The notes beneath the pieces were generated by a model. It made no database searches. It was not told where the DNA came from and worked only from the letters and a program-made list of their open reading frames with translations. A DNA stretch of 64,000 bases from Melissococcus plutonius ATCC 35311 (lineage in GTDB: Bacteria > Bacillota > Bacilli > Lactobacillales > Enterococcaceae). A program made the translations under genes and the position numbers. The stretch is from positions 226,001-290,000 of the forward strand of contig NC_015516.1 in NCBI RefSeq assembly GCF_000270185.1, written 5' to 3'. Each line of letters starts with the position of its first letter. Within the stretch, counting starts at the first letter, position 1. Positions 45,637 to 50,025 of this stretch are shown piece by piece.

Positions 45637-45773
45637 AATACTGTAAGCGAATTTGTCGTTAATGATCATAACCATATATATTAATAATGATAAATACCTC
45701 TAATCTGTATGCTTACTTCAACAACAACTTATTGCATTTTATTGTAGAGAATAAAAGAAAGGAAAGAAAAGAC

Positions 45774-47396
45774 GTGAATAAGAAAAGATGGGCTTTTCAA
45801 TTGTTGATCGTTTTATTGTTTGGACTAATTTTTAGTCATGCAACAGCTGCTTCGGCAGAAAAAGCAACAGATGGAGAATTACGTGTCGGAATGGAGGCTG
45901 GTTATGCACCATTCAATTGGACACAAGGTACAGAAAAAAATGGTGCTGTAGCTATTGAAGGAGATAAGGAATATGCTGGTGGTTATGATGTTGAAATTGC
46001 AAAAATTGTTGCAAAAAAATTAAATAAAAAATTAGTCATTGTTAAAACGGAATGGGATGGATTACCACCTGCATTAACTTCAGGTAAAATTGATGCAATT
46101 ATTGCAGGAATGACACCAACAGCAAAGCGAAAAAAAGAAGTAGACTTTACGAATGTTTATTATAAATCTCAACTTGTTTTATTGGTTCGTAAAAATAGTC
46201 AATTTGCAAAAGCGGTTGAATTAAAAGATCTTGCAAAGGCTCGAATTACTGGACAACTCAATACATTTCACTATAACGTGATTGATCAAATTCCTCAGGT
46301 GAAAAAACAACCTGCGATGGATAATTTTCCAGCAATGCGTGTTGCCTTATCATCAGGAACCATTGATGGGTATGTAACTGAAAAACCAGAGGCGATTACT
46401 GCTGAACGTGTTAATCCTAATTTTAAAATGCTTGTATTTGATGAAAAACATGGTTTTAAAACAAATCCAGAAGATACAGCTATTTCTATTGGATTAAAAA
46501 AAGGCGATGAAAAATTAGCAACAATTAATAATATCTTGGCAGGTATTTCTCAAAAAGAACGTATGCAGATTATGAATAAGGCGATTAAAAATCAACCAGC
46601 GGCTAAAGAAAACACAAAAGACAACCAGGTAGGTAATAATCATGTAATTATTAATATTTTAAAACAATATGGCTCGATGTTTGCACGTGGTGCCGGTATG
46701 ACACTTTTCTTAGCTTTAATTGGAACCATAATTGGAACAACAATTGGTTTATTGATTGGAATGTTTCGTACAATGAATGAACCAGAAGCACCAATCAAAC
46801 GAGGATTTGTTAAGTGTGTCAATGCTTTATTATTTGCTTATATAGAAATCTTCCGCGGGACACCAATGATTGTTCAAGCTGCAGTTATCTATTATGGTTC
46901 TGCACAAGCATTTGGTATAGATGTAAACAGAACGTTAGCAGCCCTTGTCATCGTCTCTGTTAATACAGGTGCCTATATGTCAGAAATTGTTCGTGGAGGT
47001 ATTTTTGCCATTGACTCAGGACAATTTGAAGCAGCTCAAGCCATTGGTATGACACATGGTCAAACCATGTGTAAAGTGATTCTACCACAAGTGATTCGTA
47101 ATATTATGCCAGCTACTGGTAATGAGTTCGTCATTAATATCAAAGATACATCAGTACTAAGTATTATTTCAGTTTCAGAGTTGTTTTTCCAAGGAAAGTC
47201 TGCTGCTGGTGCGACTTACCAATTTTTCCCTACTTATTTCATTATTTGTGTCATCTACTTTATTATGACTTTTATTGTTACACGTATTTTACGTTTGGTT
47301 GAAAAACATATGGATGGTCCTAAAAACTATACACCTTATGCCGATCAAATACAGATACAACAGTCAAATGGAGAGGAAGATAAAATCAATGAGTGA
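45774..47396 (+). CDS. Amino-acid ABC transporter, fused binding protein and permease (probably lysine)
   Basis: A 540-residue fusion. It has a signal peptide (about 1-27, cleaved after ATAASA), a periplasmic-type SBP_bac_3 binding domain (about 30-280), then a His/Glu/Gln/Arg-type permease domain with membrane segments from about 310. The permease has the EAA-like loop [21 protein letters not shown]. By sequence alone it would be called glutamine or polar amino acid transport; the upstream lysine riboswitch argues for lysine. The GTG start lies after AAAGGAAAG, and the longer ATG frame from 45687 has no SD. Overlaps the ATPase gene by 8 nt. Confidence 0.9.
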
Positions 47397-48180: not shown

Positions 48181-48238
48181 AATAAACAGAAATACATAAA
48201 TAATCGGATTATCAATTATTTATGTATTTCTGTTTATT
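48181..48238 (+). terminator. Long perfect hairpin after the transporter operon
   Basis: The 24-bp arms 48181-48204 and 48215-48238 are exact inverted copies around a 10-nt loop. The right arm ends T-rich, giving strong termination about 50 bp after the ATPase gene. Confidence 0.85.
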
Positions 48239-48645
48239 CTTTTTCACAAGATGATTATTGAGATAAGATAAATTAATAAAATATTCATCAATATAAATGT
48301 TTTTAAAAGAAGCCATTCTATTAATTAAAGGATGGATCATTAAGGAAACATAGCTTCTGCGTAATTTATCTTAGATACAAAAATTTAATGAAGATAAATT
48401 ACTTTTTTAATTTAAGTTATTTTTCAATCAAGTGATAAATATCTGAAACAATTCAGTGTTATATTGGATAAAAATAGTCAATTGATCATAAGATTTTATT
48501 CAAAAAATTGCAGAATATCTGAATAAGTTGAGTGATTGAATAGATTACCTTTTCTTAGAATATGCTATAATTTAAACAAAATAAATGATTTTGGTTTTTG
48601 GTTAATGCTTAATAATCTATATAACTAGATAGACAGGAGAATGCA
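48239..48645 (+). promoter_or_regulatory. Leader of the acetyltransferase-niaR unit with attenuator-like structure
   Basis: No gene lies in this 400-bp region. It holds a terminator hairpin, GTAATTTATCTT (48361-48372)/AAGATAAATTAC (48391-48402) plus T6. AAGATAAATTA also occurs at 48265-48275 and could pair with the same left arm as an anti-terminator. Between them AGAAGC...GCTTCT (about 48308-48357) closes a 50-nt hairpin. I do not recognise a known riboswitch. SD AGGAGA precedes 48646. Confidence 0.45.
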
Positions 48646-49497
48646 ATGGTGGAGACAATGAAAACGGAAAAACAAAAAATGATAGCTGGAGAATTATATG
48701 ATGCTGGCGCTACCGAATTGATTTCAGATCGAAAACTTGCAAGGAAACAAATGACATTGATCAATGGAGAAAAAGATCGCTCTAAGCGTTCCCAATTATT
48801 GAAACAAACATTTGGATCTTCTGAGGGTAGGATCACTATAGAGCCAACATTTAGTTTTGATTACGGCTTTAATATTCATGTTGGCAAAGATTTTTATGCT
48901 AATTTCAACAATATTTTTTTAGATGTTTGTCCGATTTACATAGGAGACAATTGTATGTTTGGCCCAAATGTTCAATTATATACAGCAGCCCATCCATTGG
49001 AATTTCAGGAAAGAAATAAGGGCCTTGAATATGGTAAACCTATTACTATTGGAAACAATGTCTGGCTTGGTGGCGGCACTATCATAATACCTGGAGTTAA
49101 GCTTGGAGATAATGTAGTAGTTGCTGCTGGATCGGTTGTAACTAAATCATTTCCAGCTGATTGTGTCATTGGTGGTAATCCTGCTAAAATGATAAAAAAA
49201 ATTGAAACTGCAGAAATAGAAGATCCACTGATGAAAAATAGAATGGAAATTAATCAAATTGATAAAAAAATTATTCAATTATTAGAACAACGAATGTCAA
49301 TTGTTTCAACAATTGCCTCAATTAAAAAAGAAAGAAAAATACCAATTTTAGATACAAATCGTGAAGGTGAAGTAATAGAGATAGTGAGGGAAGAGCTGAT
49401 TGAAAAGGATTATGAAGAGAGCATTCTTGCCATATTTCAATCTATACTTATCCAGTCTAAAGAATTTCAAAAAAAATTAAATCAAACTGGAGATTAG
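48646..49497 (+). CDS. Sugar O-acetyltransferase fused to chorismate mutase
   Basis: A 283-residue, two-domain protein. Residues about 8-186 form a maltose/galactoside O-acetyltransferase: an N-terminal Mac helix with EKQKMIAGELYDA, then a left-handed beta-helix of hexapeptide repeats with catalytic His116 in AAHPL and a C-terminal GGNPAKMI. Residues about 195-280 form an AroQ-type chorismate mutase. By alignment from memory all key residues of the E. coli domain are kept: Arg199, Arg216, Lys227, Asp236, Arg239, Glu240, Ser271 and Gln275. The two domains are in one uninterrupted frame. The start ATG follows AGGAGA. niaR starts 9 bp downstream. The function of the fusion is unknown. Confidence 0.85.
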   Translation: MVETMKTEKQKMIAGELYDAGATELISDRKLARKQMTLINGEKDRSKRSQLLKQTFGSSEGRITIEPTFSFDYGFNIHVGKDFYANFNNIFLDVCPIYIGDNCMFGPNVQLYTAAHPLEFQERNKGLEYGKPITIGNNVWLGGGTIIIPGVKLGDNVVVAAGSVVTKSFPADCVIGGNPAKMIKKIETAEIEDPLMKNRMEINQIDKKIIQLLEQRMSIVSTIASIKKERKIPILDTNREGEVIEIVREELIEKDYEESILAIFQSILIQSKEFQKKLNQTGD

Positions 49498-49506
49498 GAA
49501 TAACTA

Positions 49507-50025
49507 ATGGACGGAAATCAACGCAGAAAAAATCTTTTAAAACAATTAACTGAAGCATATAAGCCAATTAGTGCTAACTGTTTCGCTAGAATGTTCAATG
49601 TTAGTCGCCAAATTATTGTTGGTGATGTTGCATTATTAAGAGCTAGTGGATTAGCAATTTTAGCAACTTCACGTGGATATATCTTAAGTGAAAAACTTAA
49701 TAAAAAAGGTATCTTTCGTAAGATTGCCTGCCAACATGGAGTAGAGGAAACAGAAGAAGAATTACATACAATCGTAACCAATGGTGGTGAGATTGTTGAT
49801 GTCATTGTAGAACATCCACTTTATGGAGAGTTGACGGGAAATCTTCATATAAGTACACAGAAAGATATTGATAGGTTTATGAGAAAATATCAAAAAAGTA
49901 ATGCTACCCTACTATCTATCTTAACTGGTGGTATCCACCTCCATACCATTCATTGTGAAAACATAGAAACCTTTGAATTAATTAAACAGGCATTGGTCCA
50001 AAAGAATTTTTTATATCAAGAATAA
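49507..50025 (+). CDS. niaR: Niacin-responsive transcriptional repressor NiaR
   Basis: A 172-residue regulator of NAD synthesis and niacin uptake (YrxA/NiaR family). The N-terminal winged helix (about 5-60) has NVSRQIIVGDVALLRASG. The C-terminal 3H domain supplies metal-binding histidines: His79 (CQHGVE region), His87-type LHTI, VEHPLYGEL and GGIHLHTI. It binds nicotinic acid as co-repressor in relatives. It lies 9 bp after the acetyltransferase-chorismate mutase gene, so they share a transcript. No NAD genes are in the window. Confidence 0.92.
   Translation: MDGNQRRKNLLKQLTEAYKPISANCFARMFNVSRQIIVGDVALLRASGLAILATSRGYILSEKLNKKGIFRKIACQHGVEETEEELHTIVTNGGEIVDVIVEHPLYGELTGNLHISTQKDIDRFMRKYQKSNATLLSILTGGIHLHTIHCENIETFELIKQALVQKNFLYQE

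Follow-up and report, generated by a model that had tools for sequence, protein, structure and literature searches.

Textbooks place chorismate mutase (CM) at the branch point leading to phenylalanine and tyrosine. The window analysed here, a stretch of 64,000 nucleotides from the genome of Melissococcus plutonius ATCC 35311 (G000), contains a gene in which a CM domain is joined to an acetyltransferase, in a genome where neither prephenate dehydratase (PDT) nor prephenate dehydrogenase (PDH) was found. The question raised by this locus is what keeps a mutase in such an organism. The answer favoured here, at a probability of about 0.72, is that the mutase half of the fusion, which is predicted to be active and is the only recognisable CM of the genome, provides the prephenate used by TrhP1 and TrhP2, two proteins predicted to hydroxylate tRNA. 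The gene and its immediate surroundings comprise the following features, in window coordinates.

48186..48233, no strand assigned: long hairpin 5' of the fusion gene, terminator-like on the minus strand (consensus match only)
48635..48639, plus strand: AGGAG, likely ribosome-binding site of the fusion gene (read from the sequence)
48646..49497, plus strand: acetyltransferase-chorismate mutase fusion gene, a single open reading frame of 283 codons plus stop (Pfam, NCBIfam)
48667..49206, plus strand: maltose-acetyltransferase-type left-handed beta-helix domain, residues about 8-187 (Pfam, Foldseek)
49186..49239, plus strand: linker between the domains, residues about 181-198 (pLDDT <50 at 170-191)
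49240..49473, plus strand: AroQ-type (CM_2) chorismate mutase domain, residues 199-276, with eight catalytic residues present
49507..50025, plus strand: niaR-like regulator with HTH_11 and 3H domains, 172 residues, starting 10 bases past the fusion stop

A first-pass annotation had proposed an in-frame fusion without a frameshift-like join, and had named a domain search and a census across the family as checks; both bear the proposal out. The frame at 48646-49497 has zero internal stops across its 283 codons, and Pfam places Mac at residues 11-58, Hexapep at 133-167 and CM_2 at 199-276, every match above its cut-off. The same three domains occur in all 120 homologues listed, out of 7,633 found, and acetyltransferase and mutase share one open reading frame in 99 of 105 genomes of the organism's own family, the Enterococcaceae. 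The open frame, the homologues and the census together rule out a sequencing or frameshift artefact, and the fusion is shared by almost the entire family rather than being a local event. The M. plutonius mutase domain scores 63.2 bits against a CM_2 cut-off of 27, and the C-terminal half also exceeds the threshold of the NCBIfam model for Gram-positive CM (TIGR01805; 77.6 bits, cut-off 71.2). Counted from A180 up to the residue before R199, the connecting segment measures 19-21 residues in 88 of the 99 fusions. An AlphaFold monomer (mean pLDDT 75.9, pTM 0.50) gives the C-terminal half three helices, at 196-230, 237-250 and 254-281, and Foldseek pairs the two halves separately, the first with 3hjj (E 5e-17, TMt 0.85) and the second with the chorismate mutase 2d8e (E 0.011, TMt 0.88, rmsd 1.5). 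AroQ mutases are dimers and acetyltransferases of the maltose type are trimers, so the fusion may form larger assemblies.

The neighbour on the 3' side, which had been called niaR, indeed carries HTH_11 and 3H domains. The 10-base spacing suggests that fusion and niaR share transcription, and no terminator-like site shows up between the two genes in the consensus scan. That scan reports the upstream hairpin in 2 rows, at an expectation of 1.1 by chance. Further upstream, a long frame at 45687-47396 of the window appears by eye to encode a substrate-binding protein joined to an amino-acid ABC permease, and is followed by a likely ATPase gene.

Prediction of activity for the mutase half derives from its residues. 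Arg199, Arg216, Lys227, Asp236, Arg239, Glu240, Ser271 and Gln275 are found at the positions that the first-pass annotation had named, and we take these eight positions and their roles to be those of E. coli chorismate mutase (1ecm). The first six are in register with solved chorismate mutases in five profile alignments, among which 1ecm is not included and in which the letters at those positions differ in some solved chains. The claimed conservation extends well beyond M. plutonius, as all eight residues are present in 90 of the 99 fusions; two of the remaining copies carry Asp236->Asn (G066 and G068), one is truncated at a contig end (G056), and six are degenerate. The profile search counts a single CM_2 domain in the M. 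plutonius genome, the fused copy, and AroH was not found there, which leaves no second CM recognisable by either profile.

The shikimate pathway that would feed this domain is retained as far as chorismate. Chorismate synthase is present, and the operon reads aroE-aroF-aroB-aroC-aroA-aroK with tyrA and pheA absent, so prephenate has no known amino-acid use in M. plutonius. A control genome (G025) holds both genes, tyrA between aroC and aroA and pheA after aroK. Six further genomes likewise lack both with the other genes in order (G022, G024, G031, G032, G034 and G068), as does G030, with no aroE seen in the part of the locus that was read; PDH_N matches below the Pfam cut-off in G024 and G030 were counted as absence. 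On the tree of the acetyltransferase half, these eight genomes sit in three places, namely M. plutonius, genus g4 and genus g12, and at least three separate losses of tyrA and pheA are likely, some forks of the tree being weakly supported; the automated loss count considers labelled rows only and does not display three losses. A further two genomes that also lack PDT and PDH were excluded for incompleteness (G067, 76%; G104, 88% with 6% contamination).

A different reading of this situation is that the mutase half is an ordinary CM of phenylalanine and tyrosine synthesis, left over after a recent loss of tyrA and pheA and destined to decay. PDT occurs in 95 of the 105 family genomes and PDH, above the Pfam cut-off, in 94, so an amino-acid role is likely ancestral; the M. 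plutonius domain has the lowest CM_2 score among the intact fused copies (66.3 bits in the family census); and the PDT gene of G023 (C25:23322-23863) has a single internal TAA, apparently a loss under way unless it is a sequencing error, so losses may be recent in places. Some relaxation of the mutase is possible, judging from the low score and from the substitution in G068. Against decay, however, all eight residues are intact in seven of the eight family genomes without both enzymes (M. plutonius, G022, G024, G030, G031, G032 and G034), and the Asp236->Asn change of the exception, G068, is shared with G066, which has both enzymes. Purifying selection on the domain also persists where the amino-acid enzymes are gone. 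Within the clade G022/G032/G034, which lacks both, pairwise dN/dS of the mutase half is 0.155-0.219, compared with 0.013-0.32 in ten pairs from genomes with PDT. The mutase half is thus constrained even without the amino-acid enzymes, and this, together with the wider genome comparison described below, makes the leftover reading unlikely.

A user of prephenate other than the amino-acid enzymes is described in PMC6599085, according to which TrhP, a U32-family protein, requires prephenate for ho5U34 formation in E. coli tRNA, the tandem Bacillus subtilis orthologues yrrN and yrrO (trhP1 and trhP2) take part in mo5U34 formation, and TrmR (YrrM) carries out the methylation of ho5U34 to mo5U34. The M. 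plutonius genome contains a corresponding pair, about 11 kb beyond the end of the window.

L248 4301-5221 and 5237-6478 (G000:C1:301300-303477): trhP1-trhP2 pair of M. plutonius, tandem U32 genes

The second gene of the pair encodes U32 and U32_C domains with an E-C-C motif. Against the NCBI TrhP model (NF011996) it scores 337.7 bits and the first gene 91.3 bits, both below the equivalog cut-off of 534. The proposed sequence of events is as follows: the mutase domain would convert chorismate to prephenate, TrhP1 and TrhP2 would use prephenate to form ho5U34, as extrapolated from E. coli TrhP and B. subtilis yrrN/yrrO, and this use would be what retains the mutase domain. Family genomes with tyrA and pheA would draw on the same domain for phenylalanine and tyrosine synthesis as well. 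The first-pass annotation had known of no described function linking the two activities of the fusion; the mutase half can now be linked to prephenate-dependent tRNA hydroxylation, and for the acetyltransferase no such link was found.

At least two U32 matches per genome occur in 101 of the 105 family genomes, M. plutonius included, so the family alone cannot test a connection between CM and TrhP. The comparison was consequently made across the order, in 335 Lactobacillales genomes at least 95% complete, with the profiles CM_2, U32, PDT and PDH_N; the counts reproduce the search tallies of 254, 217 and 189. PDH_N matches with E >1e-10 were scored as absent, which gives 219 genomes instead of the 221 over the Pfam cut-off, a difference most likely due to G260 and G309, neither of which has CM or U32. 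Both prephenate enzymes are missing from 113 genomes, and among these CM is kept in 38 of the 45 with U32 and absent from 67 of the 68 without it (Fisher P about 9e-22, uncorrected for relatedness). The 38 genomes with CM and U32 cover 8 families and 20 genera as labelled. CM is present in 215 of the 222 genomes with PDT or PDH. Stratification by family gives P = 3e-6 for the 75 of 113 genomes with a family label, kinship inside families being uncorrected, and P stays at or below about 3e-4 on dropping any single family. This distribution speaks against a mutase that only outlives its amino-acid pathway, and favours prephenate supply to TrhP as the reason for retention.

Departures from the pattern are few. 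One genome (G352) has CM with neither U32 nor the prephenate enzymes, and seven genomes of family f4 (G211, G225, G249, G270, G300, G306 and G363) have U32 with no PDT or PDH and with neither CM_2 nor AroH. Loss of the TrhP motif was considered for these U32-only genomes and rejected, the motif being kept in the three of seven that were read (G211, G249 and G300). AroH was likewise rejected as the missing mutase of genomes that lack CM_2 and have U32 or tyrA/pheA, with 0 of 25 encoding it. Seven other genomes encode PDT, and six of them PDH, with neither CM_2 nor AroH (G100, G157, G275, G294, G345, G357 and G364), reflecting either an unrecognised mutase or an assembly gap.

Gene order outside the family points in the same direction. 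Considering genomes of other families with coordinates for both CM and U32, a CM lies at most 5 kb from a U32 gene in 6 of the 14 that lack both PDT and PDH, compared with 0 of the 61 that have at least one of them; this count leaves out 17 of the 38 genomes for a missing coordinate, plus seven from the own family, where U32 lies away from the fusion (at 27 kb in M. plutonius, on another contig in the other six). Four of the six clusters read trhP1-trhP2-transporter-CM in one direction (G116, G128, G177 and G378), G336 shows the same arrangement with transporter fragments only, and in G291 a transporter-CM pair faces trhP1-trhP2. All eight catalytic residues are intact in the CMs of all six loci. 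The transporter gene beside CM in these loci (L242-L247, from G177, G128, G336, G291, G116 and G378) is CitMHS/DASS-like: the G177 protein matches CitMHS and, below cut-off, DASS, and the others are 42-55% identical to it over nearly the whole length, G336 having fragments only.

The cluster in G177 contains a second, independent fusion. Here the CM is in frame with a Methyltransf_3 domain in a protein of 328 residues (L242 2519-3505, minus strand), 3' of trhP1-trhP2 and the transporter gene, and the solved structures most similar to the methyltransferase include an O-methyltransferase (2gpy), a tRNA 5-hydroxyuridine methyltransferase (8k1f) and YrrM (5zw3). A chain that combines the predicted maker of the co-substrate with the likely next enzyme on the same base, encoded beside the hydroxylase genes, is difficult to account for unless the two share a pathway. 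The reading of the M. plutonius mutase as a supplier of prephenate to TrhP is preferred because of these three lines of evidence, namely co-occurrence, gene clusters and the independent CM-methyltransferase fusion.

The six degenerate fused copies bear on another possibility, that the mutase fold is kept chiefly to help the acetyltransferase oligomerise or stay stable, with catalysis incidental. These copies (G096-G099, G103 and G104) lack Arg199 along with further catalytic residues, and nevertheless remain full-length and constrained, with a mutase-half dN/dS of 0.13-0.22 in five of six pairs, the sixth giving no value. The dN/dS values therefore fail as proof of catalysis, as the degenerate copies are about as constrained as those of the clade G022/G032/G034 and catalytic constraint is not separated from structural constraint; the residues are what discriminate where dN/dS cannot. 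Degenerate copies occur only in these six genomes, which form one clade (100/99 support on the tree of the acetyltransferase half), so a single loss event is likely. Each of the six also carries a separate CM in which seven of the residues are kept and the Ser position is occupied by Thr. The only other genome with two complete CM_2 domains, G057, shows the opposite arrangement, an intact fused copy and a separate copy with 3 of 8 residues changed, and so each of the seven genomes holds one intact or nearly intact CM. Against a scaffold speak the loss of catalytic residues in what looks like one event, and only where a separate mutase exists, and the retention in G093 and G094 of mutase and niaR with no acetyltransferase in the stretch read; nor would a scaffold be expected to conserve exactly the catalytic residues elsewhere. 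A predominantly structural role is very unlikely on these grounds, and an active supplier of prephenate for TrhP remains the preferred description.

The acetyltransferase half, ACETYLTRANSFERASE, is the better conserved of the two. Across 91 other fusions, taken after exclusion of the degenerate and truncated copies, mean identity to the M. plutonius protein is 66% for this half and 39% for the mutase. The dN/dS of the acetyltransferase half is 0.00-0.08 in all pairs compared. His116, Asn86, Asp93 and Trp140, presumably active-site residues of the acetyltransferase, are identical in 99 of 99 fusions, those with degenerate mutases included. These properties would suit a separate, strongly selected activity. 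The NCBIfam equivalog for maltose O-acetyltransferase gives 234.9 bits, below its cut-off of 314, so the maltose name is unsupported. A single pathway, in which the acetyltransferase would use chorismate, prephenate or a related compound of the shikimate pathway and acetylate it at a hydroxyl, might be read into the long-lasting fusion, the low dN/dS of this half and its invariant candidate residues, but is highly improbable, since the halves are separately losable (the mutase function in the six-genome clade, the acetyltransferase in G093 and G094, where none was found within 10 kb around the mutase), which argues against a strict two-step pathway, and the closest solved relatives act, by their names, on sugars.

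The census also suggests how the fusion arose. CM_2 is present in 103 of the 105 family genomes. The six genomes without a fusion comprise G067 (76% complete, CM_2 not found), G100 (without CM_2), G101 (a separate CM only), and G064, G093 and G094, which have CM alone, the contig of G064 ending just past it. A niaR frame on the same strand adjoins the CM frame in 96 of 110 CM rows, made up of 94 of the 99 fusions together with G093 and G094; the gap or overlap between the stop-to-stop frames is at most 121 bases. A genome of a different family (G152) has a standalone 88-residue CM directly 5' of niaR (locus L249), so CM beside niaR is not confined to the Enterococcaceae. Most likely, then, the acetyltransferase joined a mutase that was already next to niaR. 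Directly 5' of the CM-niaR pair in G152 lies a SIR2-family gene (L249 2704-4227), giving that CM two NAD-related neighbours. A second 3H domain is found in G036, at the C-terminus of a 308-codon frame directly after niaR (L048 1837-2760, plus strand).

A broader proposal would treat CM in lactic acid bacteria as turned into a tRNA-modification enzyme and, after loss of amino-acid synthesis, kept only to make prephenate for TrhP by three routes: joining the trhP operon, fusing to a TrmR-like methyltransferase, and, in enterococci, fusing to an acetyl-CoA-using enzyme within a niaR operon. Acetyl-CoA level and niacin status would then gate the supply of prephenate and hence tRNA decoding capacity. 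In this full form the proposal is quite unlikely.

The sequence of the fusion is already present in public records, which label the protein "chorismate mutase" or "maltose O-acetyltransferase". Outside the family, a scan of public genomes returned 137 relatives, of which the best 80 are acetyltransferases without CM by profile, a weak negative given that the scan used a few short patterns and may have left out records of the organism's own genome or close to it. Titles and the beginnings of abstracts in the open-licence literature contained no description of an acetyltransferase-CM fusion or of a CM retained for tRNA modification, the two enzyme names occurred together there only in E. coli indole work, and the available part of PMC7311316 held nothing relevant. 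The pairing is family-wide, with no description found in that literature. What is new is the likely reason for survival of the mutase, namely prephenate for tRNA hydroxylation. Genome comparison suggests that wobble modification of tRNA is a second, separable reason for keeping a CM. This could be tested directly in bacteria without genes for phenylalanine and tyrosine synthesis, and for annotators it means that a lone CM is not evidence for synthesis of these amino acids.

The protein shares with the Gram-positive monofunctional AroQ enzymes (TIGR01805; PF01817) the profile, the three-helix fold and the eight catalytic residues. It differs from them in that the mutase is fused behind an acetyltransferase, as the C-terminal half, and that its predicted product has no known amino-acid use in M. 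plutonius. With the maltose O-acetyltransferase family (PF12464 plus Hexapep) the protein has in common the Mac cap, the beta-helix and a profile match over residues 5-186, as well as a close structural fit to the solved maltose acetyltransferases 3hjj, 2ic7 and 1ocx (Foldseek TMt 0.85-0.89); it departs from that family in scoring below the equivalog cut-off and in the attached mutase domain. Like AroQ-PheA, AroQ-TyrA and DAHP synthase-AroQ, it holds AroQ in frame with a second enzyme. The aroQ fusions described in the accessible portion of PMC1173090 have aromatic-pathway partners, whereas the Mac/Hexapep partner here is not known as an aromatic-pathway enzyme; the Enterococcus faecalis operon given in the same portion lists tyrA and pheA and not aroQ. 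A functional parallel is the TrhP/TrmR pathway of PMC6599085, with which M. plutonius shares a predicted prephenate user in its trhP1-trhP2 pair and to which the six reduced genomes add a clustered CM. The part of that work available links the supply of prephenate to the shikimate pathway and to synthesis of aromatic amino acids, whereas in M. plutonius the mutase persists without such synthesis.
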